Of a DNA stretch of 64,000 nucleotides, positions 66 to 12,086 are shown one piece after another. The stretch's first letter is position 1; every line of letters begins with the position of its first letter. The notes under the pieces were generated by a model. That model made no database searches. It was not told where the DNA came from and saw only the letters and a list, made by a program, of their open reading frames with translations. Made by a program: the position numbers and the translations under genes. This DNA is from Acetobacteraceae bacterium (GTDB lineage Bacteria > Pseudomonadota > Alphaproteobacteria > Acetobacterales > Acetobacteraceae), in assembly GCA_027482245.1 (NCBI GenBank), contig JAIXWG010000058.1, forward strand, positions 124,001-188,000, read 5' to 3'.

Positions 66-1697
66 ATGACGCTGCACTCCGCTGCCGATGACCTGATCAT
101 GGGCCTGACGCAGGTGGTGGACCTGCCCGGCCTGACCACGGCCGCCGGCGCGCCGCTGGCGGGCGAGGACATCGCCGCGCTGATCGAGGAAGCCGCCCGC
201 TTCACGCGGGAGCAGATGGCCCCGGGCTGGCAGGAGGCCGACCGCCACGGCGCCACCTACGCCAACGGCACCGTCACCACGCCGCCGCACTACAAGGCGC
301 TGATGCGGGCCTGGATCGACAGCGGCTGGCAGGGCGTCGCTGCCCCCGAATCCCATGGCGGGCAGGGGCTGCCGCATGCCGTCTGGATCGCGGTGACGGA
401 ACTGGCTTCCGCCGCCGACATGGCCTTCTTCCTCGGCCCCGTGCTGACCGCCGGCGCCATCGACCTGCTGCTGGGCCATGGCACGCCGGACCAGCAGGAA
501 CGCTTCCTGCCGAAGCTCGTCACCGGCGAATGGAACGGCACCATGTGCCTGACGGAGCCGCAGGCGGGCAGCGACCTGGCCGCGCTCCGCACCCGTGCCG
601 AACCCCTCGGGGACGGCCGCTACGCCCTGCACGGCCAGAAGATCTACATCACTTGGGGCGAGCACGACACGACGGAGAACATCCTCCACCTCGTCCTTGC
701 CCGCCTACCCGGTGCCGCCGAAGGCAGCCGGGGCATCTCCCTCTTCGCCGCGCCGAAGGTCCTGCCGGACGGCACGCGCAACGCGCTCCGCTGCGGCGGC
801 ATCGAGCGGAAGATGGGCATCCACGCCTCCCCCACCTGCATCATGCTGTTCGAGGGCGCGGAGGCGGAGCTGGTCGGCGAACCCGGCCGCGGGCTCAACG
901 CCATGTTCGCCATGATGAACGCGGCGCGGCTGGCCGTGGGCGTCCAGGGCGTGGCCGCCGGCGCGCGGGCGCTGGAACTGGCGGAGAAATACGCCGCCGA
1001 CCGCACCCAGTCCGGCCGCCCCATCGCCCGCCACGCCGATGTCGCCCGCATGCTGGCGGAGATGCGCGCCACGACCCTCGCCTCCCGCCTGCTGGCCTTG
1101 GAGGCCGCGGCCGCGCTGGACCGCCACCACCTGCTGGGGGATGAGGCCGGGCAGGTGCGCCTCGCGTTGCTGACGCCCATCGTGAAGGCCTGGTGCACCG
1201 ATCGGGGCGTGGAGAATGCCAGTCTCGGCATCCAGGTGCATGGCGGCATGGGCTTCGTGGAGGATACCGGCGCCGCCCAGGTGCTGCGCGACGTCCGCAT
1301 CACGCCCATCTACGAAGGCACCAACGGCATCCAGGCGATCGACCTGCTGGTGCGGAAGGTCGCCAAGGATGGCGGGGCCGCGATGCGCGCCCTGCTGGCG
1401 GAGGTCTCGGCCGCCGATCCGCGCCTGGCGGACGCCGCACGCCGGCTGGATGCAGCGACGGGGCTGATGCTGGATCTGCAGGGCAGGGACCCCGATGCCG
1501 CCCAGGGCCTGGCCACCGCCTATCTGGACGCCTGCGGCTGGGTGCTGGGGGGCTGGATGCTGGCCCGCGCCGCCGCCGCGGCGCCGGACCGGGCCGCGCT
1601 GGCCGGTTTCTACCTGGCCCGGCTGCTGCCGCGGGCGGAGGCCAGGTGCCTCGAAATCGAACAGGGGGCGCTGGTCCCCATCCCTTCGGTGATGTAA
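66..1697 (+). CDS. Acyl-CoA dehydrogenase (FadE/DmdC-like)
   Basis: FAD enzyme that introduces the alpha,beta double bond in an acyl-CoA thioester and passes electrons to ETF. The 543 residues show the family order: helical N domain, a middle beta domain with MCLTEPQAGSDL starting at residue 160, and a C-terminal helical domain. Y416-E417 in YEGTNGIQAIDL matches the catalytic glutamate of medium-chain enzymes. About 110 further residues follow, as in longer FadE and DmdC types. The stretch WGEHDTTENILHLVLAR is typical of the methylthiopropanoyl-CoA dehydrogenase-like clade (recalled, not aligned), so the substrate could be a short or branched acyl-CoA rather than a fatty acid. A CAGGAAA sequence lies just upstream of the ATG. 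Nothing ties it to the carotenoid genes that follow. Confidence 0.93.
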   Translation: MTLHSAADDLIMGLTQVVDLPGLTTAAGAPLAGEDIAALIEEAARFTREQMAPGWQEADRHGATYANGTVTTPPHYKALMRAWIDSGWQGVAAPESHGGQGLPHAVWIAVTELASAADMAFFLGPVLTAGAIDLLLGHGTPDQQERFLPKLVTGEWNGTMCLTEPQAGSDLAALRTRAEPLGDGRYALHGQKIYITWGEHDTTENILHLVLARLPGAAEGSRGISLFAAPKVLPDGTRNALRCGGIERKMGIHASPTCIMLFEGAEAELVGEPGRGLNAMFAMMNAARLAVGVQGVAAGARALELAEKYAADRTQSGRPIARHADVARMLAEMRATTLASRLLALEAAAALDRHHLLGDEAGQVRLALLTPIVKAWCTDRGVENASLGIQVHGGMGFVEDTGAAQVLRDVRITPIYEGTNGIQAIDLLVRKVAKDGGAAMRALLAEVSAADPRLADAARRLDAATGLMLDLQGRDPDAAQGLATAYLDACGWVLGGWMLARAAAAAPDRAALAGFYLARLLPRAEARCLEIEQGALVPIPSVM

Positions 1698-1754: not shown

Positions 1755-3359
1755 ATGACCGCGCCCCTGTCCTCCCCCGCCCTTCATCGACCCCGGCCCA
1801 AGGTGGCCATCATCGGCGCGGGGCCTGGGGGCCTCGCCGCCGCCATGATGCTCGCCGCATCCGGCGCCCGGGTCACCGTGTTCGAGAAGGATGACGTGGT
1901 CGGGGGGCGCACGCGCACCCTGACCACCGACCAGGGCTACAAGTTCGACCTGGGACCGACCTTCTTCCTCTATCCCCGCATCCTGAAGGAGATCTTCCAG
2001 CGCTGCGGCGCCGATCTCGAGCAGGAAGTGGATATGCGGCGGCTGGAGCCGCAGTACCGCCTGACCTTCGAAAAGGGCGGCAGCGCCACCCATATCGAGG
2101 CCAGCGCCGACATGGCGCGGATGGAAGCGGCGATCGCGCAGATCTCACCGAAGGACGCCAAGGGCCTGCGCCCCTTCATGGAGGAGAACCGGGCCAAGCT
2201 CGCGGCCTTCCGCCCCGTGCTGGAACGCGCCTTCTCCACCGCCGCCGACATGATCCGCCCGGACATGATCAAGGCGCTGCCGCTGATGAAGCCCTGGTCC
2301 ACGGTGGACAAGGACCTGGCGCGCCACTTCAGCGACCCCCGCGTCCGCCTCGCCTTCTCCTTCCAGACCAAGTACCTGGGCATGAGCCCGTTCAAGTGCC
2401 CGGCGCTCTTCACCATCCTGTCCTTCCTGGAATACGAGCACGGCATCTTCCACCCCATTGGCGGCTGCGGCGCGGTTTCCGTCGCCATGGCGAAGGTGGC
2501 GGAACGCCTCGGCGCCGAGATCCGCCTGAACTCCCCGGTGGACCGCATCGGCTTCGAAGGCCGCCGCGCCAAGGGCGTCGAGATCGGCGGCGTGCGGCAT
2601 GATGCCGACGCCGTCGTCGTCAACGCCGACTTCGCCCATGCCATCCCGAAGCTGATCCCGGACCACCTCCGCAAGGGCTGGAAGGACAAGAAGATCGGGG
2701 AGGCGAAGTACTCCTGCTCGACCTTCATGCTCTATCTCGGGCTCGACCGGGAACTGCCCGAACTCGCCCACCACAACGTCCTGCTCTCCGAGGGCTACCA
2801 GGAGAACATCGCCCAGATCGAACGGGGCGAGATTCCCGAGGTGCCGTCGCTCTATGTGCAGCACGCCGGGGCGACGGACCCGACCATGGCGCCGAAGGGC
2901 CACTCCGCCCTCTACGTCCTCGTCCCCGTGCCGAACCTCATCAAGCAGCCGGACTGGCCGGCCCAGGCCGCACGATACCGGGAGATCGCGCTGGACCGCC
3001 TGAAGGCCCTCGGCCTGCCGGACCTGCGCCCCCACATCAAGTACGAGCGGATCGTCGCTCCCCAGGACTGGGAGAGCGACTTCGCGGTCGGCTTCGGTGC
3101 CACCTTCAACCTGTCCCACGAACTGCCGCAGATGCTGCTGTTCCGGCCGGGCAACCGGTTCCGGGACGTGGAGGGTGTCTACCTTGTCGGCGGCGGCACC
3201 CACCCCGGCAGCGGCCTGCCTGTCATCTACGAAGGCGCCAGGATCACGACGGGGCTGATGGCACAGGACCTCGGCCTGGCCAGCGCGCCCAGCCGCCCCA
3301 CGGCCGGCGGCGACTTCGCGGCCGCCACGCCGGCCGCGGCCTACGGGCCGGATCGGTAG
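1755..3359 (+). CDS. CrtI/CrtN-family carotenoid desaturase (first of two)
   Basis: FAD-dependent desaturase or oxygenase of the phytoene/diapophytoene dehydrogenase family, expected at the membrane on a polyene substrate. The dinucleotide-binding GAGPGG is at residues 21-26, followed by the family's E-K-x-x-x-V-G-G-R and the D-x-G-P-T element (FDLGPTF). The C-terminal FAD signature GVYLVGGGTHPGSGLP is near residue 473. At 534 residues it has the usual family length. Downstream squalene-forming genes suggest the substrate is squalene or a C30 polyene, so this is either the CrtN-like dehydrogenase or the CrtP-like terminal-methyl oxygenase. The sequence alone does not say which of the two paralogues does which step. 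A 250-bp hairpin-rich gap separates it from the second paralogue. Confidence 0.9.
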   Translation: MTAPLSSPALHRPRPKVAIIGAGPGGLAAAMMLAASGARVTVFEKDDVVGGRTRTLTTDQGYKFDLGPTFFLYPRILKEIFQRCGADLEQEVDMRRLEPQYRLTFEKGGSATHIEASADMARMEAAIAQISPKDAKGLRPFMEENRAKLAAFRPVLERAFSTAADMIRPDMIKALPLMKPWSTVDKDLARHFSDPRVRLAFSFQTKYLGMSPFKCPALFTILSFLEYEHGIFHPIGGCGAVSVAMAKVAERLGAEIRLNSPVDRIGFEGRRAKGVEIGGVRHDADAVVVNADFAHAIPKLIPDHLRKGWKDKKIGEAKYSCSTFMLYLGLDRELPELAHHNVLLSEGYQENIAQIERGEIPEVPSLYVQHAGATDPTMAPKGHSALYVLVPVPNLIKQPDWPAQAARYREIALDRLKALGLPDLRPHIKYERIVAPQDWESDFAVGFGATFNLSHELPQMLLFRPGNRFRDVEGVYLVGGGTHPGSGLPVIYEGARITTGLMAQDLGLASAPSRPTAGGDFAAATPAAAYGPDR

Positions 3360-3380
3360 GCGGGTTTCGCGGGTGGCTTC

Positions 3381-3560
3381 GCGGGGGCGCTGCCCCCGCA
3401 CCCCCGCCGGGGGGCGTGGCGCCCCCCGGACCCCGCCAGCACTGAACGCTGGGGAGGGAGGGGGGGCGAAGTGCCCCCCTCCCTCCCCAGCGTTCACTAC
3501 CTGAGGTCCAGGAGGCCGCTGCCTCCTGGCAGGGGGTGCAGGGGGACAGCGTCCCCCTGC
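3381..3560. repeat. Array of five GC-rich perfect or near-perfect hairpins
   Basis: Five inverted repeats follow each other in the gap between the two desaturase genes: arms 3381-3388/3392-3399 (loop GCT), 3407-3416/3420-3429 (loop TGG), 3444-3467/3473-3495 (23 to 24 bp, one bulged G, loop GAAGT), 3508-3516/3521-3529 (loop CGCT) and 3538-3547/3551-3560 (loop AGC). The last two form the same two-hairpin module seen again at 26425-26475. Such elements behave as REP-like sequences, transcript stabilisers or attenuators. Here they would sit inside the carotenoid transcript. No coding capacity is apparent. Confidence 0.85.
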
Positions 3561-3609
3561 AATGCCCCCGGGAAACACGCTACGAATACAGGCACGGAGG
3601 TGCGTTCGC

Positions 3610-5196
3610 ATGGCTGATCGGGTGGTGGTGGTCGGGGGTGGCCTGGGTGGGCTGGCGGCCGCGGCGGTGGCGGCGGCGCGGGGGCACAAGGTCACGCTGC
3701 TCGACAAGAACCCTTGGCTGGGTGGCAAGGCGGCGGTGTTGAACCTGCCGGCGCCGGATGGCAGCGGCGAGTTCCGCTTCGACATGGGGCCGACCATCCT
3801 GACCGTGCCGCGCGTGCTGCGCCGGATCTATGCGGAGGCCGGGCTGGACCAGGCGCGCGAGTTGCCGCTGATCCGCCTCGACCCGCAGTGGCGCTGCTTC
3901 TTCGAGGACGGGACACAGATCGACCTGATGGCCGATGTCGCGACCATGCAGGCGCAGATCGAGAAGTTCGCACCCGGTCGTGGCCTGGGCGAGGGCTACC
4001 GCAAGTTCCAGGAAGAGAGCCGCCACCTGCATGGCGTCTCCGAAAAATTCTTCTTCTGGCGGCCGGTGGAGGGTGTCACCGACACCATCGACATGAAGGC
4101 CAACCTGAACCCGAACACCATCCGGGACGTGCTGAGCCTGAAGATGGGCCAGACGGCGGCCAAGGTGATCCGCGGCCATGTGCCGGATGAGCGCCTGGCC
4201 CAGATGCTGGACCATTACTGCCAGTATATCGGCTCCTCCCCCTACCTGGCGCCGGCGGTGGTGTGCTCGATCGGCGACATGCAGGCGAGCGAGGGCGTCT
4301 GGTACCCCGTCGGCGGCACCCGCGCGGTGGCGGAGGGGCTGGCGAAGCTGGCCGCGAGCCTTGGGGCGGACCTGCGCCCCAATTCCGAGGTCACGGGCTT
4401 CGACATCGAGAATGGCGCCATCAAGGGCGTGCGGGTGGGGTCGGAGCGCATCGCTTGCGATGCCGTCATCTCCAACATGGACGCCATCCGTACGTACAAG
4501 GAGCTGGTCGGCGGCGATGTCGGCCGGAAGTATGAGAAGAAGGGCTTCGAGCCCGCGTGCAGCGGCGTCGTCCTCTATCTCGGCCTGAAGAAGCGCTACG
4601 ACCACCTGGCGCATCACTGCTTCGTCTTCTCCCGGGATGCGGAGGAGGAGTTCGACGCGATCTACAAAAAGGGCGAGCCCGCGCCGGATCCCACAGCGTA
4701 TCTGGCCGCGACGTCGTGCAGCGACGACACCACGGCGCCGGCGGGCGGGGAGGCGCTGTATGTGCTGGTCCACACGCCGCATCTTCGCCCGCACCATGAC
4801 TGGTCGACGATGTTCCCGAAGTACCGGCAGACCATCCTCGACAAGCTGAAGCGCACGGCGGGGATGGAGGATATCGAGGAGCGGATCGTGGTGGAGAGCC
4901 AGCTGACGCCGGTCGACATCCACAACCGCTACAAGGTGCTGGACGGCGCGATCTACGGGCTGGCGAGCCATGGCAGCTTCACCGGCGCCTTCAAGCCGGG
5001 CAACCGCAGCAAGGCGGTGAAGGGCCTCTATCTCTGCGGCGGCGCGGCCCATCCGGGCCCCGGCATGCCGATGGTGATGATGTCCGGCTGGATCGCCGCC
5101 GATGCGCTGGACCGCGACCGCGGCGGCAGGGGCATGAGTGATGCGGCGCGGGAAGCCGGGCGGCGCGAATCCGAAATCGCCGCGGCGGCCGAGTAG
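3610..5196 (+). CDS. CrtN/CrtP-family carotenoid desaturase or oxygenase (second of two)
   Basis: Second FAD amine-oxidase-fold carotenoid enzyme, 528 residues from this start. GGGLGG is at residues 9-14, the FDMGPTI element lies near residue 58, and the C-terminal FAD signature GLYLCGGAAHPGPGMP near residue 473. The start is chosen because CGGAGG sits 9 nt before this ATG and the FAD motif then falls at the usual distance from the N-terminus; an in-frame ATG 16 codons upstream would lie in the hairpin-rich gap without a good ribosome site. By analogy with staphyloxanthin genes, one paralogue desaturates the C30 chain and the other oxidises a terminal methyl to an aldehyde. The next gene starts 8 bp after the stop. 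Confidence 0.9.
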   Translation: MADRVVVVGGGLGGLAAAAVAAARGHKVTLLDKNPWLGGKAAVLNLPAPDGSGEFRFDMGPTILTVPRVLRRIYAEAGLDQARELPLIRLDPQWRCFFEDGTQIDLMADVATMQAQIEKFAPGRGLGEGYRKFQEESRHLHGVSEKFFFWRPVEGVTDTIDMKANLNPNTIRDVLSLKMGQTAAKVIRGHVPDERLAQMLDHYCQYIGSSPYLAPAVVCSIGDMQASEGVWYPVGGTRAVAEGLAKLAASLGADLRPNSEVTGFDIENGAIKGVRVGSERIACDAVISNMDAIRTYKELVGGDVGRKYEKKGFEPACSGVVLYLGLKKRYDHLAHHCFVFSRDAEEEFDAIYKKGEPAPDPTAYLAATSCSDDTTAPAGGEALYVLVHTPHLRPHHDWSTMFPKYRQTILDKLKRTAGMEDIEERIVVESQLTPVDIHNRYKVLDGAIYGLASHGSFTGAFKPGNRSKAVKGLYLCGGAAHPGPGMPMVMMSGWIAADALDRDRGGRGMSDAAREAGRRESEIAAAAE

Positions 5197-5204
5197 CCAC
5201 CGCC

Positions 5205-6020
5205 ATGGCTACCGCCCCGAAGCCGGAGGGGGACAATCCCGTCCCCCTCTTCGACCCGCGGCGGATGGCCTTCTACCACTTCATGTTCCGCCGCTTCTTC
5301 GCCAAGCACATGCGCGCGGCGCGGGTGGCGCGGTGGGGCATGCCGCGGGACTATGGCAACCGCCCGCTGGTGGTCTTCGCCAACCATCCGGGCTGGTGGG
5401 ACGGCGTCGCCTTCATGCTGCTGTCGCAGCGGCTGTTCCGCGGCCGGACGATGTTCATCCCGATGGATGCGCAGGCGCTGTCCCGCTACGCCTTCATGCG
5501 CCGCATCGGCGTCTTCGGGATCGAGGGCGGCACCGCGCGCGGCGCCGTCGCCTTCCTGCGCACGGCGAAGACGGTGCTGGCGGCGCCGGACCGGATGCTC
5601 TGGATGAATGCGCCCGGCCGGTTCAGCGACGTGCGGGAACGCCCCGTGCCGATCGCGCCCGGCATGACCCGGCTGCCGGAGATGGCGGCGGATGCCCTCT
5701 TCGTGCCCCTGGCGCTCGACTACCCCTTCTGGACGGAGCGCAAGGCGGAGATGCTCTGCGCCTTCGGCGATCCGATCGAGGCAGCCACCCTGCTGGCCCT
5801 GCCGCGGGACGACCGCGCGCCCGCGCTGTCGCAGGCGCTGGCGGAGACGATGGACCGCCTGGCGCTGGACGCCATCGCCCGTGATCCGGCAAGGTTCGAG
5901 ACGCTGCTGCGCGGGCCGGAAGGCATGGGGGGCGTGTGGCAGCTGTGGCGCCGCCTGCGCAGCACGCTCCGCGGCGAACGCTTCGATCCAAGACACGATC
6001 CTCGCCAGGAGGCCGGCTAG
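5205..6020 (+). CDS. PlsC-like acyltransferase, probable carotenoid-glycoside acyltransferase
   Basis: Lysophospholipid-acyltransferase fold protein of 271 residues. The catalytic H-x4-D motif is visible as NHPGWWDG (H61, D66), followed by a hydrophobic substrate-binding region and an EGG-like turn (FGIEGGTARG). In a housekeeping setting this family acylates glycerol-3-phosphate derivatives. Here it lies between carotenoid oxidases and a glycosyltransferase with only 3 to 8 bp gaps, so a role like CrtO of staphyloxanthin synthesis, esterifying a fatty acid to the carotenoid sugar, is the better inference. No signal peptide is seen; membrane association would be peripheral. Confidence 0.82.
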   Translation: MATAPKPEGDNPVPLFDPRRMAFYHFMFRRFFAKHMRAARVARWGMPRDYGNRPLVVFANHPGWWDGVAFMLLSQRLFRGRTMFIPMDAQALSRYAFMRRIGVFGIEGGTARGAVAFLRTAKTVLAAPDRMLWMNAPGRFSDVRERPVPIAPGMTRLPEMAADALFVPLALDYPFWTERKAEMLCAFGDPIEAATLLALPRDDRAPALSQALAETMDRLALDAIARDPARFETLLRGPEGMGGVWQLWRRLRSTLRGERFDPRHDPRQEAG

Positions 6021-6023
6021 ACC

Positions 6024-7127
6024 ATGGTTGCGGATTTCACCTGGGCCTGGATCGCCCTGGCGCTGGCGACCTTCCCGGCCACGATGGGGGTGGTGAACCT
6101 GTTCCTCGTGCGCCCGCCGGAAGGCCGGCCCGGCGATGGCGCGCTGGTCTCCGTCCTGATCCCCGCGCGGAACGAGGAGGCGAACATCGCCGCCTGCCTC
6201 GATGCCGTCCTCGCTTCCCGCGGCGTCGCGATCGAGGTCGTCGTGATGGATGACGGATCGACGGACCGGACCGCGGCGATCGTGCAGGGCTACGCGGCGC
6301 GCGATGGGCGCGTCCGCCTGGAACAGGCCCCGCCGCTGCCTTCGGGCTGGACCGGCAAGGTGCATGCCTGCCAGCGCCTGGCGGATGCCGCGCGGGGCAC
6401 GCATCTGCTGTTCATCGATGCCGATGTGCGCCTCGCCCCCGATGCCGCGGCCAGCATGACGGGCCATGCGGCGCGGACGGGCGCGGGGATGGTGACGGGC
6501 GTGCCGCGCCAAATCATCCGCTCGCTCGGCGAAGCGGCCACCGTGCCGATGATCAACTTCCTCCTGATGTGCTACCTGCCCGGCGGCGGGCGGGCCTTCA
6601 CCAAGCGGTCCGGCATGGCCGCGGCCTGCGGGCAGCTGCTGCTGGTGGAACGCCGCGCCTATGATCACACCGGCGGGCATGAGGCGGTGAAGGGCGTGCT
6701 GCATGACGGGCTCGCGCTCGCCCGCCTGATGCGGGACGCCGGGCATGCGACGGAGATCGTGGAGGGCGCGGGAATCGCGACCTGCCGCATGTACACGAAC
6801 TTCGCGGATTGCTGGTCCGGCTTCAGCAAGAATGCGCGGGAGGGCATGGCGACCCCGGTCGGCCTGCCGGTCTGGACCGTGATGCTGGCGGGCGCGCATC
6901 TCTGGCCCTTCGTCTTCCTGCCGGGCACCGCGGCGATCATCGCGCTGGCGCTGGGCTTCGCGCTGCGCGCCGCCGTCACGCTGCGGGTGCGGGAGCCCTG
7001 GTGGACCATCCCGCTGCATCCCGTGACCGTCGCGGTCGCGCTCGCCATCCAGTGGACGGCGCTGGTGCGCGGGCTGATGGGCAAGCCGGCGGGGTGGAAG
7101 GGCCGCGCCTACCAGGGCATCGGCTGA
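6024..7127 (+). CDS. Family 2 glycosyltransferase, CrtQ-like
   Basis: Membrane-anchored GT2 enzyme of 367 residues. An N-terminal hydrophobic segment is followed by the GT-A domain: LIPARNEEANI, the nucleotide-binding DDGS (residues 76-79) and the metal-binding D-A-D (132-134). Two or three hydrophobic segments close the protein (about 290-350). This layout matches carotenoid glucosyltransferases such as CrtQ and HpnB-type hopanoid-associated transferases. Position in the cluster favours transfer of a sugar to the carboxyl group of an oxidised C30 carotenoid. It begins 3 bp after the acyltransferase stop and its own stop is 2 bp before the next start, so translation is probably coupled. Confidence 0.85.
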   Translation: MVADFTWAWIALALATFPATMGVVNLFLVRPPEGRPGDGALVSVLIPARNEEANIAACLDAVLASRGVAIEVVVMDDGSTDRTAAIVQGYAARDGRVRLEQAPPLPSGWTGKVHACQRLADAARGTHLLFIDADVRLAPDAAASMTGHAARTGAGMVTGVPRQIIRSLGEAATVPMINFLLMCYLPGGGRAFTKRSGMAAACGQLLLVERRAYDHTGGHEAVKGVLHDGLALARLMRDAGHATEIVEGAGIATCRMYTNFADCWSGFSKNAREGMATPVGLPVWTVMLAGAHLWPFVFLPGTAAIIALALGFALRAAVTLRVREPWWTIPLHPVTVAVALAIQWTALVRGLMGKPAGWKGRAYQGIG

Positions 7128-7129
7128 GC

Positions 7130-8731
7130 GTGGATTCCGTCACGGTTGCCGCCGGCCCGCCGACCCGGGACGAGAATTCGGAGAATTTCCCCGTCGCCTC
7201 GCGGCTGATCCCGGCCGCGCTGCGCCCCAAGGTCCTGGCCTTCTACCGCTTCGTCCGCACCGCCGACGACATCGCCGACCACGCCACGCTCAACAGCACG
7301 GAGAAGCTGGCGCGGCTGGAGGCGATGGAGATCCTGCTGGACGATCCCGCCGGGCCGCTGGCCGACGTCGGCACCGACGAAGCCCGCCTGCTGCTCTCCG
7401 CCTTCCGCCAGGATGCCATCCGAGGCCGCTACCCCGACTGGGCGGCGCTGGAGGATTACTGCGCCCGCTCAGCCGAACCCGTGGGCCGCATGCTGCTGCG
7501 CCTGCATGGCGAGGATGACGCGGCCGCGCGCCATGCCTCCGACGGGCTCTGCACCGCGCTGCAGATCCTGAACCACCTGCAGGACCTGGTGCCGGACCGG
7601 GACGCGATGGACCGCATCTACCTGCCCGTGCCCTGGATGGCGCTGGCGGGCGGGGAGGCCACCTTCTTCGCCGCCGCGAACCCCGCCCGCCGTGCCGTGC
7701 TGGATGCGGCGCTCGATCGGGTGGAGGCGCTGCTGGAACAGGCGGCGCCGCTGCCGCGCCTGCTGCGGTCCCGCCTGCGCTTCCAGGCTGCCGTGACGCT
7801 GGATCTGGGATGGCGCCTGCTGGCGAAGCTGCGCGCCGATGATCCCGTGCAGGGCCGCGTCGCGCTGGGCAAGACGGACTTCGCCCGCGCCTTCGCGCGG
7901 CTGGCACTGCCGCCGCCTTCCGACGCCGCCGTCGTGCGCGCGCGGGTGGCGCGGGCCAAATCCTCCTTCGCGCGGGGCATGGCGGTGCTGAAGGGGGAGC
8001 GGCGACGCGCGCTCTTCGCCGTCTATGGCTTCTGCCGGGCGGTGGACGACATCGCCGATGGCGCCATGCCGGAAGCCGAGAAGCGCCGCTTCCTCGCGCA
8101 ATGGCGCAGCAAGCTGGAGGCACCAGATTGCGCGCTTTCCGCCGAACTCGCCTGGGCCCGGCGCGCATACGCGCTGCCGCTCTCGGAATGCGAGGTCATG
8201 ATCGCGGGCATGGAGACGGATGCGACGCCGGCGCTGCGCCTGCGGACGGAGGTGGCGCTGGACGAGTATTGCCGCCGCGTCGCCGGCAGCGTCGGCGCCA
8301 TGGCGGTGCGCATCTTCGGCGCGCCGGGGGCGGAGCGCTTCGGCCTCGCCCTCGGCCGGACCTTCCAACTCGTGAACATCCTGCGCGACGTGGATGAGGA
8401 TGCGGCGATCGACCGCGTCTATGTGCCGGCCGACCTGCTGGCGCGGCACGGCGTGACGGCGACGGCGGCGGCTGACATCGTCGCCGATCCCGGCTTCGCC
8501 CGCTGCTGCGAGGAACTGGCCCACCGCGCGGCCGCCGGCTTCGCGCGGGCGGAACGGGAGTTGCGCGAACACGACCCCGCGGCGCTGAAGCCGGCGCGGG
8601 TGATGATGTGGGGCTATCGCCGCCTGTTCGACCGCATGCAGGCGCAGGGCTTCGCCTTCCCGCGCGTCCGGCCCCGCCTGACGCGGGAGGAGAAGCTGCG
8701 CATGGCGCTGCTGGCGATGAAGCCAGGATGA
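7130..8731 (+). CDS. hpnC-hpnD: HpnC-HpnD fusion: squalene synthase pair in one polypeptide
   Basis: Two squalene/phytoene-synthase domains in one 533-residue chain. The first (about 1-265) resembles HpnC (hydroxysqualene synthase): ENSENFPVAS at the N-terminus, D46-D47-x-x-D50 and a second Asp motif D152-x3-D156. The second (about 270-533) resembles HpnD (presqualene diphosphate synthase): D306-D307-x-x-D310 and D420-x3-D424. HpnD condenses two farnesyl-PP to presqualene-PP, HpnC converts this to hydroxysqualene, and HpnE reduces it to squalene. These are normally separate genes of about 280 codons. The GTG start is preferred: it lies 2 bp after the previous stop and gives the HpnC N-terminus. 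The frame is open further upstream, but only inside the glycosyltransferase gene. The stop overlaps hpnE by ATGA. Confidence 0.9.
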   Translation: MDSVTVAAGPPTRDENSENFPVASRLIPAALRPKVLAFYRFVRTADDIADHATLNSTEKLARLEAMEILLDDPAGPLADVGTDEARLLLSAFRQDAIRGRYPDWAALEDYCARSAEPVGRMLLRLHGEDDAAARHASDGLCTALQILNHLQDLVPDRDAMDRIYLPVPWMALAGGEATFFAAANPARRAVLDAALDRVEALLEQAAPLPRLLRSRLRFQAAVTLDLGWRLLAKLRADDPVQGRVALGKTDFARAFARLALPPPSDAAVVRARVARAKSSFARGMAVLKGERRRALFAVYGFCRAVDDIADGAMPEAEKRRFLAQWRSKLEAPDCALSAELAWARRAYALPLSECEVMIAGMETDATPALRLRTEVALDEYCRRVAGSVGAMAVRIFGAPGAERFGLALGRTFQLVNILRDVDEDAAIDRVYVPADLLARHGVTATAAADIVADPGFARCCEELAHRAAAGFARAERELREHDPAALKPARVMMWGYRRLFDRMQAQGFAFPRVRPRLTREEKLRMALLAMKPG

Positions 8732-9957
8732 CCGTTCACGTCATCGGCGCGGGCGTGGCCGGGCTGGCCGCGGCGCTGGCGCTCGCCAAGGCCGGGCGGC
8801 GCGTGGTGGTGCACGAAGCCTCCCCCGGCGCCGGCGGCCGCGCGCGGACGCTGCCGGATGGCACCGACAACGGCACCCATGCGCTGCTCGGCGCCAACCA
8901 GGCCGCGCTCGGCTTCCTGCGGGAGGTCGGTGCGCTGGAGGGGTGGGTGGAGCCGGAGCCCGCGGGGCTGCCGGTGCTGGACCTGGCGGACCATGCGGCG
9001 CGACGCGTGGCGCTGGCGCCGGCAGGGTGGTGGCGCCCGGCGATGCGCCCGGCGGGGCTCGATGCCGGCGGGTTCCTGGCGCTGCTGCGCCTCGCCTTGC
9101 CCGGGCGGGACCGCAGCGTGGCCGCTTCCTTCGCGCGCCATCCCGTGCTGCTGCGCGCGCTGGTGGAGCCGCTGACCGTCGCGGCGCTGAACACGCCGGT
9201 TGGGGAAGCCTCCGCCAGCCTGCTGGGCCTGGTGTTGCGGCGGCTCGGCGCGCCCGGGGCGGCGCGGCTGCTGGTGGCGAACCGCGGCTTGGGGCCGGAC
9301 CTGGTGGCACCGGCGCTGGCGACGATCGGTGCGCATGGCGGCGCCGTGCGCTTCGGGTCCCGCCTGCGCGGCCTGGTGCGCGCGGAAGGCCGCGCCGCGG
9401 CGCTGGATTTCGGGGAGACGGCGCAGCGCCTGGCGCCCGATGACCAGGTGGTGCTGGCGCTGCCGCCGTGGGAGGCGCTGCGCCTTCTGCCGGACCTGCC
9501 CGCGCCGACGACCCACGCCCCCATCCTCAACGTCCATTTCGCGCGGGAAGGGGAGGGGCCGGTGCGCTTCATCGGGCTGCTCGGCGGGCTCGGCCAATGG
9601 GTGCTGGTGCGGCCCTCCGGCGTCTCCGTCACCGTCAGCGCGGCGGATGACAGCGTCGGGCTCTCGGATGCCGAGGCCGCGGACCGCATCTGGCCGGAGG
9701 TGCTGGCCGCCGCCATGGCCTTCCGCCTGCCGGGCGAATGGCCGATCCGCGCCCCCGCCGCCCGCGCCGTGCGGGAACGCCGCGCCACGCCCCGCCACGG
9801 CGTCGGCCCGCGCCCCGCGCCACCCCGCCGGCCCCTGGCCAACCTGGCCCTGGCCGGCGACTGGACATTCTCGAGTCTGCCCGCAACCATCGATGCGGCC
9901 GTGCAGTCCGGCAATGCCGCCGCCGCCGCCCTGCTGCATCCGGGCCCGCGCGCATGA
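8728..9957 (+). CDS. hpnE: Hydroxysqualene dehydroxylase HpnE
   Basis: FAD-dependent enzyme of 409 residues that reduces hydroxysqualene to squalene. The N-terminus shows VIGAGVAGLAAAL (G7-x-G9-x-x-G12) and the E-x-x-P-x-x-G-G-R-A-R motif. The region NTPVGEASASLLGLVLRR matches the HpnE pattern in which a short LN-x-P segment precedes the substrate domain, and a GDWTF motif near the C-terminus closes the FAD site. It overlaps the HpnC-HpnD stop by 4 bp and the aldehyde dehydrogenase start by 4 bp. Squalene-hopene cyclase and other hopanoid genes are absent nearby, so the squalene made here is probably meant for carotenoids. Confidence 0.9.
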   Translation: MTVHVIGAGVAGLAAALALAKAGRRVVVHEASPGAGGRARTLPDGTDNGTHALLGANQAALGFLREVGALEGWVEPEPAGLPVLDLADHAARRVALAPAGWWRPAMRPAGLDAGGFLALLRLALPGRDRSVAASFARHPVLLRALVEPLTVAALNTPVGEASASLLGLVLRRLGAPGAARLLVANRGLGPDLVAPALATIGAHGGAVRFGSRLRGLVRAEGRAAALDFGETAQRLAPDDQVVLALPPWEALRLLPDLPAPTTHAPILNVHFAREGEGPVRFIGLLGGLGQWVLVRPSGVSVTVSAADDSVGLSDAEAADRIWPEVLAAAMAFRLPGEWPIRAPAARAVRERRATPRHGVGPRPAPPRRPLANLALAGDWTFSSLPATIDAAVQSGNAAAAALLHPGPRA

Positions 9958-11300
9958 CGCCCGCTGAAGCGCTGGCGACGCTGCGCGCGGCGGAAGCCCG
10001 CGATGGCCGGATCGAGGTCGGGGCGCGCCGCGAGCTTCTGGCGCGGCTGGCCGATGCGCTGCTGACCCATGCGGAGGCGATCGCCGCGGCGCTCGACGCC
10101 GACTATGGCGGGCGATCGCGGCTGGAGACGCTGCTGGCCGACGTGCTCTGCGCCGTCGACGCCGCGCGCTACTCCCGCCGTCACCTCCGGTCCTGGGCGA
10201 AGCCCCGGCGCGTCGCCGTGCCCTATCCCTTCTGGCCGACGCGGGCGTGGGAGGAGCCGGTGCCCAAGGGCATCATCGGCATCATGGCGCCCTGGAACTA
10301 CCCGGTGCAGCTGGCCCTGGTGCCCGTCGTGGACGCCATCGCCGCCGGCAACCGCGTGGCGGTCAAGCCGAGCGAGGGCACTCCCCGCTGCGCCGCCCTG
10401 ATCGCCCAGGTACTGGAGGAGGCGCTGGGCCCCGCCATCGCCGCCACCGTCCAGGGCGGGCCGGATGTCGCCGCCGATTTCGCCGCCCAGCCCTGGGACC
10501 ATCTGGTCTTCACCGGCGGCACCATGACGGGGCGCAAGGTGGCGGAAGCCGCGGCGCGCAACCTGGTGCCCGTGACGCTGGAACTCGGCGGCAAATGCCC
10601 GGCCCTGGTGCTGCCGGGCGCCGACCTCGCCCAGGCCGCGCGGGACATCCTGGTGGGCAAGGCGGTGAATGCCGGCCAGACCTGCGTGGCGCCCGACACG
10701 GTGCTGCTGGTCGGCCACGCGGTGGAAGCCTTTGCCGAGGCCTGTCGCGCCAGCGGCATCGGCCTGCCGGAGACCGCGCTGGCGAATGACGCCCAGGCCG
10801 CGCGGCTGGACCGCCTGGTGGAAGGCACGCGGCTGGAGAAGCTGGCACCCGATGCCAGCCCCCGCCACCGCGCCCTGGCGCTGGCCTTTCCGGCACCCGG
10901 CCACCCGCTGCTGGAGGAGGAAGTCTTCGGGCCGATCCTGCCCGTGCTGGCCCTGCCGGACCTGCCTTCCGCCATCGCCTGGGTCACCGCCCGGCCATCC
11001 CCCCTGGCCGTCTACCTGTTCGGCGCGATAAGCGATGAAACAGCCCTGGTTGCACAATCGGTTCGTTGCGGTGCCCTCGTGCAGGACCGGGCGGTGGAAT
11101 ACGCGGCCTTCCCGGCGCTGGGCTTCGGGGGCACGGGTCATTCCGGAACTGGACGGTATAAAGGATTCGCGGGATTTGTCGCATTTTCAACAATTCGCGC
11201 GCGGGTTGTTCACGGGAAATGGAGTCTTTCCCGTATCTTCGATGTCCCGAGAAAAAAATTCGCTCCGGGGTTGATCGAGAGGCTGGTAAGGAAGCGTTAA
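9954..11300 (+). CDS. Aldehyde dehydrogenase, probable diapocarotenal dehydrogenase
   Basis: NAD(P)-dependent aldehyde dehydrogenase of 448 residues. The cofactor-site motif IMAPWNYP, the general base E210 in LELGGKCP and the nucleophile C244 in NAGQTCVAPD are all present, spaced 34 residues apart as in the family. The protein resembles the coniferyl-aldehyde and long-chain fatty-aldehyde branch, the same branch as AldH of staphyloxanthin synthesis. As the last gene of the cluster it likely oxidises a C30 carotenoid aldehyde to the acid that is then glycosylated. The last 270 bp are clearly less GC-rich than the rest of the gene. The start is the ATG that overlaps the HpnE stop as ATGA; an open frame further upstream lies inside hpnE. 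Confidence 0.88.
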   Translation: MTPAEALATLRAAEARDGRIEVGARRELLARLADALLTHAEAIAAALDADYGGRSRLETLLADVLCAVDAARYSRRHLRSWAKPRRVAVPYPFWPTRAWEEPVPKGIIGIMAPWNYPVQLALVPVVDAIAAGNRVAVKPSEGTPRCAALIAQVLEEALGPAIAATVQGGPDVAADFAAQPWDHLVFTGGTMTGRKVAEAAARNLVPVTLELGGKCPALVLPGADLAQAARDILVGKAVNAGQTCVAPDTVLLVGHAVEAFAEACRASGIGLPETALANDAQAARLDRLVEGTRLEKLAPDASPRHRALALAFPAPGHPLLEEEVFGPILPVLALPDLPSAIAWVTARPSPLAVYLFGAISDETALVAQSVRCGALVQDRAVEYAAFPALGFGGTGHSGTGRYKGFAGFVAFSTIRARVVHGKWSLSRIFDVPRKKFAPGLIERLVRKR

Positions 11301-11318: not shown

Positions 11319-11957
11319 ATGATCGTATCCGGCGAGCCTGACGCGCCCATCCACACGCAAAGGCTGCGTTTGCGTCTTCCCCAGCCCGATGATGCGCAGG
11401 AACTCGCCGCGCTGATGGCGCCGGAGGTCAGCGCGCGGCTCGCCTCCTGGCCCGCCAACCTGGCGCCGGACATCGCTGCGCAGCGGCTGACGGAGGCACG
11501 CGGCGCGGCCCTCGATGGCCGGGCCCTGCCGCTGGTGATCGAACGCCGCGACGACCGCGTGCTGGTCGGCTGGATCGGCGCGACGCGGGCGGAAGCCAAT
11601 CCCCGCTGCGCGATCCTGACCTACTGGCTGGGCTGCCAGCATCACGGCCAGGGCTACATGCGGGAAGCCGCGCCGGCGGCCCTGGCGGCGATCTTCACGC
11701 GCCTCGACGTGGCGGAGGTGCGCGCCGCGGTGCAGTGCGACAACGACGCCTCCCGCGCCGTGCTCCAGGGTCTCGGCCTGCACAAGATGGAGCTCGGCCG
11801 CATCTGGTGCAGCGCGCGCGGGCGGGAGGAGACCTGCGAGTGGTGGGCGGTCACGCGACCAGCGGAGGCACCCGCTTCTGCCGAGGTCGGCATCACCCTC
11901 GACGTCCCCGCCCTGCTGTCCCCGATGCCGGTGCCCCTGCAGGTCGCCGCGCCGTAG
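11319..11957 (+). CDS. GNAT-family N-acetyltransferase (RimJ/RimL type)
   Basis: Acetyl-CoA-dependent acetyltransferase of 212 residues. The RimJ/RimL-type opening HTQRLRLRLPQPDDAQELAAL is clear, followed by the central beta strands and the acetyl-CoA loop GCQHHGQGYMREA (Q-x-x-G-x-G/A region), then the usual NDASRAVLQGLGL motif. The acceptor, an N-terminal amine or a small molecule, cannot be read from sequence. A proline/alanine-rich tail of about 30 residues follows the domain. It starts 18 bp after the aldehyde dehydrogenase stop, so it may be read through from the carotenoid transcript, but no functional link is evident. Confidence 0.85.
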   Translation: MIVSGEPDAPIHTQRLRLRLPQPDDAQELAALMAPEVSARLASWPANLAPDIAAQRLTEARGAALDGRALPLVIERRDDRVLVGWIGATRAEANPRCAILTYWLGCQHHGQGYMREAAPAALAAIFTRLDVAEVRAAVQCDNDASRAVLQGLGLHKMELGRIWCSARGREETCEWWAVTRPAEAPASAEVGITLDVPALLSPMPVPLQVAAP

Positions 11958-12004: not shown

Positions 12005-12086
12005 GCGGGCGTGCCGGAACGGTAGACGGAAGGGTCTTAAAAACCCTCGGCCCTTGGCCATGCGGGTTCGATCCCCGCCGCCCGCA
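12005..12086 (+). tRNA. tRNA-Leu (anticodon UAA)
   Basis: A complete cloverleaf can be folded. Acceptor arms GCGGGCG and CGCCCGC pair fully with discriminator A. The anticodon stem AGGGT/ACCCT encloses loop CTTAAAA with anticodon TAA at 12038-12040. A 14-nt variable region with a small stem marks a class II tRNA, and the T arm is GCGGG-TTCGATC-CCCGC. CCA is not encoded. UUA is a very rare codon at this GC content. No duplicated 3' end of this tRNA or integrase gene is seen in the window, so there is no sign of an integrated element here. Confidence 0.95.

Follow-up and report, generated by a model that had tools for sequence, protein, structure and literature searches.

The formation of C30 carotenoids from squalene is an already published route, for which the accessible parts of the literature describe mutants in Methylobacterium and Azospirillum. 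In Azospirillum brasilense Sp7, carotenoid is lost on deletion of hpnCDE and on deletion of crtNPOQ, and squalene accumulates in the crtNPOQ mutant (PMC13274349, in the part available). The product of Methylobacterium extorquens AM1 is 4-[2-O-octadecenoyl-glucosyl]-diapolycopenedioic acid; deletion of the glycosyltransferase and acyltransferase genes led to the diacid and to a compound with the mass of the glucosyl-diacid, respectively, and the aldehyde dehydrogenase was not identified, two candidates having proved negative (PMC10448405, in the passages available). Here we describe a cluster of seven genes of this kind in a 64,000-nucleotide stretch of contig JAIXWG010000058.1 from an Acetobacteraceae bacterium (the window). 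The genes are co-directional on the + strand, occupy positions 1755–11300 and follow the order crtN-crtP-acyltransferase-glycosyltransferase-hpnCD-hpnE-aldH, with an acyl-CoA dehydrogenase gene preceding them. The seven adjacent genes and their boundaries had been listed in a first-pass annotation of the same DNA, and both were confirmed; the acyl-CoA dehydrogenase gene is an addition to that list. The host genome, that of a Roseomonas-type bacterium, comprises 6.39 Mb in 71 contigs and is estimated to be 99.6% complete.

Judged from its sequence, the locus is very probably (at about 0.86) a complete single-locus operon for a C30 carotenoid made by the squalene route. This estimate starts from the gene content, the enzyme families, the intact catalytic residues, the conservation and the failure to detect a hopene cyclase, all of which we observed directly; each reaction would be that of studied relatives. 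The enzyme set is the one found in A. brasilense Sp7 (hpnCDE, crtNPOQ-aldH; PMC13274349), although there the squalene and crt genes lie at two loci and the available part of the account does not mention an hpnC-hpnD fusion, whereas here there is one locus with a fused gene. With M. extorquens AM1 the cluster shares squalene formation by HpnCDE, CrtN, CrtP, a glycosyltransferase and a lysophospholipid-type acyltransferase; in that organism, as the passages available describe it, hpnCDE stands beside the hopene cyclase gene and the genes are scattered (PMC10448405), whereas here they would form one operon with its own aldH and no cyclase detected. The plasmid-borne staphyloxanthin-type operons of Staphylococcus xylosus and S. 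pasteuri contain CrtN-, CrtP- and CrtQ-type relatives, but they employ CrtM where this locus has HpnCD and HpnE, and the acyltransferases have no detectable similarity.

In the same family, a C30 carotenedioate and its diglucosyl ester are given for Roseococcus thiosulfatophilus in a 2025 review that cites papers titled with RB3 (PMC12654162, in part). The chemistry is known there, without a gene link in the passage concerned, and strain RB-3 holds an orthologous cluster. Fused hpnCD genes have been noted in Acidobacteria subdivision 2 and in some Actinobacteria and Alphaproteobacteria (PMC5462960, in part), and we found more of them outside the present clade, so the fusion in itself is not a novelty. 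The acidobacterial fusion was described in the context of hopanoids, whereas the clade studied here is mostly tied to carotenoid clusters.

In the open-access literature searched, we found no report of a fused hpnCD inside a carotenoid cluster none of a C30 carotenoid in Acetobacteraceae or Roseomonas, and none that combines carotenoid, squalene and crtN for Roseomonas, the search having been made without the Santana-Molina 2022 squalene-route paper. The terms squalene, crtN and C30 are absent from the main text of a paper on photosynthesis traits in Acetobacteraceae (PMC10715153), as are Roseomonas, Roseococcus, Rubritepida and squalene from the available text of PMC9598406. Within this literature, the new elements are a compact cluster with a carotenoid-clade HpnCD fusion, which occurs across the Roseomonas clade and is kept where cyclase is undetected, a pathway split with the hopanoid locus, an aldH borne on the cluster and the link to the R. 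thiosulfatophilus pigment. One small operon would hold every expected step towards a C30 diapocarotenoid ester, aldH included, and it offers candidate genes for the polar C30 pigment reported from R. thiosulfatophilus in the review passage.

Squalene enzymes of the cluster

When scanned as a whole, the fused protein scores 322 bits against HpnC (cut-off 250) and 303 bits against HpnD (cut-off 279), values that are sums over both halves. When the halves are scanned singly, HpnC leads for the N-terminal one with 220 bits, ahead of HpnD with 87, and HpnD leads for the C-terminal one with 230 bits, ahead of HpnC with 114; neither half reaches the cut-off of its family. HpnE is the best family for 8728–9957 by 199 bits, at 242 bits against a cut-off of 283, and we regard the product as a diverged HpnE, not a proven one. 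By family assignment all three squalene enzymes are clear, yet they are diverged. A scan of named genomes found 562 relatives of the fused protein, and the best 80 of these 562 were used for comparison. Both Asp-rich motifs of both synthase halves are kept in 80 of 80 rows; here and below, rows are taken from the 80 named loci where the match covers more than 80% of the query at more than 45% identity, and the window is counted.

HpnD is the enzyme that forms presqualene diphosphate, HpnC converts this to hydroxysqualene and HpnE acts afterwards, an order known from the families. In the cluster, the C-terminal HpnD half would join two farnesyl diphosphates into presqualene diphosphate, the N-terminal HpnC half would yield hydroxysqualene from it, and HpnE would complete the formation of squalene.

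The nearest named relatives of the fused protein come from Acetobacteraceae, namely Roseomonas ponticola (94%) and Falsiroseomonas algicola (92%). An assembly artefact joining hpnC and hpnD is ruled out, since the two halves lie in one open frame in all 25 relatives read; at one locus (L171), where the DNA is GC-rich, the label "fused" derives only from the length of the open frame, and two genes may be present. Among 150 Acetobacteraceae genomes, 26 including the host have a full-length fused protein at at least 61% identity. Trees of both halves were built by a quick method and assessed by the Shimodaira–Hasegawa-like approximate likelihood ratio test (SH-aLRT) without bootstrap; L172 has no row in the HpnD tree, its HpnD match having been a cross-match. 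The 26 fused proteins formed one clade in both trees (SH-aLRT 97 for HpnC and 96 for HpnD), standing apart from the HpnC and HpnD of hopanoid clusters in the same family. The earlier description of these enzymes as hopanoid-type is therefore a loose one. A fused protein from Microvirga was the sister of the group in the HpnD tree (93) and remained unplaced in the HpnC tree. Elsewhere in the family, distant HpnCD fusions occur in two genomes (G001 and G116) with a hopene cyclase gene near by on the same contig. In other families of the class, fusion candidates were found in 16 of 385 genomes at E 1e-62, 11 of them spanning both halves without an internal stop, and a CrtP-like gene (44–49%) adjoins the fusion in two of the 11 loci read (L218, L220).

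Pigment enzymes and predicted product

Genes 1 and 2 of the seven both exceed the crtI_fam cut-off of 238 bits (Table 1). We compared them in a maximum-likelihood tree of 30 proteins, in which the proteins at the CrtN and CrtP positions of two Staphylococcus plasmids served as yardsticks. The ten gene-1 rows formed one group (support 100/100) and the ten gene-2 rows another (99/98), all of them from alphaproteobacterial clusters; gene 1 was on the side of staphylococcal CrtN and CrtI (99/99), and gene 2 clustered with staphylococcal CrtP (91/87). This phylogeny, which had been proposed as a check, places the two proteins in separate clades, and we classify gene 1 as CrtN-type and gene 2 as CrtP-type, the latter with modest support.

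By family the glycosyltransferase and the aldehyde dehydrogenase are clear and the acyltransferase is weak; the residues expected of these enzymes are intact. The HX4D motif of the acyltransferase is present in 71 of 71 rows, the DxD motif of the glycosyltransferase in 73 of 73, and Glu211 and Cys245 of AldH in 58 of 58. The glycosyltransferase has a 28% match to that of the S. pasteuri pigment locus. The acyltransferase gave no match to either of two staphylococcal pigment loci at E 1e-4; it is of the same kind, and has the same neighbourhood, as META1p3664 of M. extorquens, whose role was shown by deletion according to the passages available.

By analogy with the studied systems, squalene would be desaturated by CrtN, its terminal methyl groups oxidised to aldehydes by CrtP, and the aldehydes converted to the acid or acids by AldH, after which the family-2 glycosyltransferase would attach glucose as an ester and the PlsC-type enzyme would acylate the sugar. 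The most likely product is 4,4'-diapolycopene-4,4'-dioic acid in the form of an acylated glucosyl ester. The ester type predicted by the first-pass annotation therefore stands, whereas the backbone, given there as a diapocarotenoic acid, is expected to be dicarboxylic as in the parts of the Methylobacterium and Roseococcus literature available. The proposed origin of the C30 backbone in squalene from HpnC, HpnD and HpnE gains support from homology and from the published mutants of M. extorquens and A. brasilense, as far as the accessible accounts of them go.

A staphyloxanthin-type product is a C30 mono-acid that is glucosylated and acylated. The view of the locus as a staphyloxanthin pathway with CrtM replaced was not upheld, and it appears instead to be the established alphaproteobacterial squalene route. 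Neither CrtM nor a CrtO-family acyltransferase, both of which mark the staphyloxanthin pathway, was recognised among the genes: the staphylococcal genes at the CrtM position match the HpnD half only, at 23–26%. A modified staphyloxanthin pathway is further opposed by the acyltransferase, which is unmatched in the staphylococcal loci, and by M. extorquens, which in the passages available likewise has a lysophospholipid-type enzyme and no CrtO homologue.

Hopene cyclase, C40 genes and the uses of squalene

No hopene cyclase was detected anywhere in the host genome, which extends the earlier remark that no squalene-hopene cyclase lies nearby. Squalene usually serves the making of hopanoid lipids; in the host, pigment is thus its only evident use. 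Two more of the 150 genomes have the fused protein cut at a contig end, which makes 28 fused-type genomes. CrtN, for which we set a threshold of E below 1e-120, is present in 26 of them. HpnCD is accompanied by both CrtN and the cyclase in 19 genomes, by CrtN alone in seven (the host among these seven without detected cyclase) and by the cyclase alone in two; none has neither. A perfect link between HpnCD and CrtN is ruled out by the two genomes that lack CrtN.

The best surviving alternative, though a quite improbable one, is that fused HpnCD and HpnE serve hopanoids and the carotenoid genes are mere neighbours. The cyclase is, after all, found in 21 of the 28 genomes, and in the 26 genomes whose fused gene is complete nothing else matches HpnC above 200 bits, so hopanoids in the cyclase-bearing ones probably draw on the fused enzyme. 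In addition, G047 and G127 (a Caldovatus sediminis contig) hold HpnCD and HpnE without CrtN, so the enzyme set is not tied to pigment alone. In 18 of the 21 genomes, however, the cyclase gene is on another contig, and in three it shares the contig at a distance of about 298 kb to 2.3 Mb; several contigs are short, so that a separate contig is no proof of distance. Moreover, searches did not detect it in the host, in 7/28 of the fused-type genomes or, among 34 named genomes hand-picked from the 80 and mostly named isolates, in 14. These 14 comprise six of Falsiroseomonas type, five of Neoroseomonas type, Humitalea rosea, Pseudoroseomonas rhizosphaerae and Roseomonas sp. GC11, and no searched member of the Falsiroseomonas or Neoroseomonas type shows the cyclase (we assigned L082, L085, L086 and L134 to these genus groups ourselves). 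Draft genomes may miss a gene, yet the pattern recurs by genus. Supply of hopanoids as the sole role is rejected for the host, where the cyclase was not detected; at most, it could be a secondary role in some members of the group. As a separate observation, G077 (L178) has hpnC, hpnD and hpnE, and neither a hopene cyclase nor a CrtN-type match was detected in it.

Marginally less probable still is that the diverged HpnE stops short of squalene, with CrtN taking hydroxysqualene or a dehydrosqualene derived from it. In six of the genomes in the HpnE search there is one HpnE each, beside hpnCD, and its score of 228–264 bits, like that of the window, is under the 283 cut-off. Against this, the crt cluster of five genomes with fused HpnCD and CrtN (L138, L142, L147, L154, L158) contains no hpnE match, and these genomes have a canonical HpnE, their sole strong one (384–405 bits), whose match ends 86–101 bases from the hopene cyclase match; squalene, furthermore, builds up in the A. 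brasilense crtNPOQ mutant, according to the available part of PMC13274349.

The least probable alternative, a C40 pigment made by the two CrtI-family enzymes from phytoene produced elsewhere, finds support in the CrtB-type, CrtI-like and CrtD-like proteins (labels by us) encoded on host contig C62, but that set shares its contig with pufLM (L072, L073) and includes a separate CrtI with 37% identity to gene 1, and CrtN is mostly kept where CrtB is missing. On these grounds C40 was rejected as the product of the cluster. The host is probably an aerobic anoxygenic phototroph. Apart from the fused protein, it encodes just two squalene/phytoene-synthase proteins: the CrtB-type protein of C62 and, with a weaker match, a protein on C59 that we take to be NDUFAF6-like. 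Among the 28 fused-type genomes, pufLM is present in 14, the host included, and a complete CrtB-type protein (223–256 bits, identified by score and not by tree) in exactly those 14; G120 has a fragment. Both CrtB-type protein and pufLM are lacking in 13, of which 11 have CrtN, so that these 11 show no route to a carotenoid backbone other than C30. The C40 genes follow photosynthesis; the C30 cluster does not. A C40 pigment mass, which had been named as evidence against the pathway, would not refute it, since crtB- and crtI-type genes and pufLM are present in the genome as well.

Several points weigh against a complete C30 carotenoid operon. The fusion halves and HpnE each score below the curated cut-offs, as does the acyltransferase (PF01553, 20.6 bits against 23). 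The grouping of gene 2 with staphylococcal CrtP reaches only 91/87, and the staphylococcal rows, whose branches are long, do not pass the composition check of the tree. The two genomes with HpnCD and HpnE but no CrtN count on the same side, as does the contamination estimate of the host, 5.4%, against which can be set the presence of the same locus in the same-genus genome G095 and in named relatives. The product given for the host is a prediction, and whether it is acylated or a mono-ester is uncertain, because the review passage speaks of a diglucosyl ester in R. thiosulfatophilus and is silent on acylation.

Beyond the reading of the locus as a C30 operon, we lean slightly towards an evolutionary scenario in which the pigment operon of the Roseomonas clade captured the only squalene synthase of the cell, the HpnCD fusion replacing hpnC and hpnD of the hopanoid operon, and the cyclase was dropped in the Falsiroseomonas- and Neoroseomonas-type lineages. 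If so, cyclase-bearing lineages would make hopanoids from pigment-operon squalene, each locus would need the other where HpnE stays beside the cyclase, and the Falsiroseomonas- and Neoroseomonas-type lineages would reserve squalene for pigment alone. The aldH of the operon would then encode the type of enzyme that, in the passages available, eluded identification in Methylobacterium, and the C30 dioate ester that the review passage gives for Roseococcus would have its genetic basis in the operon. Genomes that keep the squalene genes with no cyclase detected are natural experiments in which the role of squalene in pigment can be told apart from its role in hopanoids.

Gene order and locus layout

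Gene order was counted in the 61 of 80 named loci that extend far enough to either side of hpnCD; the named-genome set and the set of 150 family genomes partly overlap. The order crtN-crtP-acyltransferase-glycosyltransferase-hpnCD-hpnE is kept in 51 of these 61 loci and differs in ten. The aldH gene directly follows hpnE in 48/61, the acyl-CoA dehydrogenase gene directly precedes crtN in 47/61, and both hold in 44/61. All eight genes are present in R. thiosulfatophilus RB-3 (L102) and Rubritepida flocculans. A similar cluster with fused HpnCD is carried on a plasmid of Microvirga ossetica, and plasmids of Azospirillum oryzae and Palleronia carry crtN, crtP, the acyltransferase, the glycosyltransferase and an aldehyde dehydrogenase gene, hpnC and hpnD being separate on the Palleronia plasmid. 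A 44% relative of the acyl-CoA dehydrogenase is encoded upstream of crtN in A. oryzae. We also noticed an annotated sulfotransferase after the glycosyltransferase in the crt clusters of A. oryzae and Palleronia (L079, L081), which might make sulfated C30 carotenoids.

The squalene genes are not fixed in the cluster. None of the 12 crt clusters in family genomes without this fused gene (L182–L193) contains hpnCD. One of these clusters (L183, genome G016) has hpnE (62%) and lacks hpnCD, while near kin carry the fused gene, and another (L185, G102) has neither hpnCD nor hpnE, while in G003, of the same genus, both are part of the cluster. The comparison of these two clusters with their kin indicates that the cluster can gain or lose the squalene module.

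The coordinates are collected in Table 1. Genes 1 and 2 are separated by a gap of 202 bases. The spacing of −7 to +8 bases across 5196–9957, including a 4-base overlap of hpnE with hpnCD, suggests that the genes from gene 2 onward are one transcription unit.

Table 1. Genes of the cluster in the window, with predicted functions and the matches or residues on which they are based
Feature	Position	Strand	Basis
Acyl-CoA dehydrogenase, first gene of cluster	66..1697	+	PF00441, PF02771, PF02770, PF12806
CrtN-type C30 desaturase (predicted substrate squalene)	1755..3359	+	TIGR02734 514 bits; tree
CrtP-type C30 terminal oxidase	3562..5196 (start probably 3610)	+	TIGR02734 381 bits; tree
PlsC-type acyltransferase (predicted sugar acylation)	5205..6020	+	PF01553 20.6 bits; HX4D
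Family-2 glycosyltransferase, CrtQ-like (predicted glucosyl ester formation)	6024..7127	+	PF00535 85 bits; DxD
HpnC-HpnD fusion, 533 aa, GTG start	7130..8731	+	halves 220 / 230 bits; Asp motifs
Diverged HpnE, predicted hydroxysqualene dehydroxylase	8728..9957	+	TIGR03467 242 bits
Aldehyde dehydrogenase (predicted C30 aldehyde to acid)	9951..11300 (start probably 9951)	+	PF00171 209 bits; Glu211, Cys245

On the 3' side of aldH, positions 11319–11957 were read by eye from the sequence as a putative GNAT-type acetyltransferase gene, to which a match was found in 22 of the 80 named loci. A tRNA-Leu (taa) gene lies at 12005–12086, just past the cluster region.

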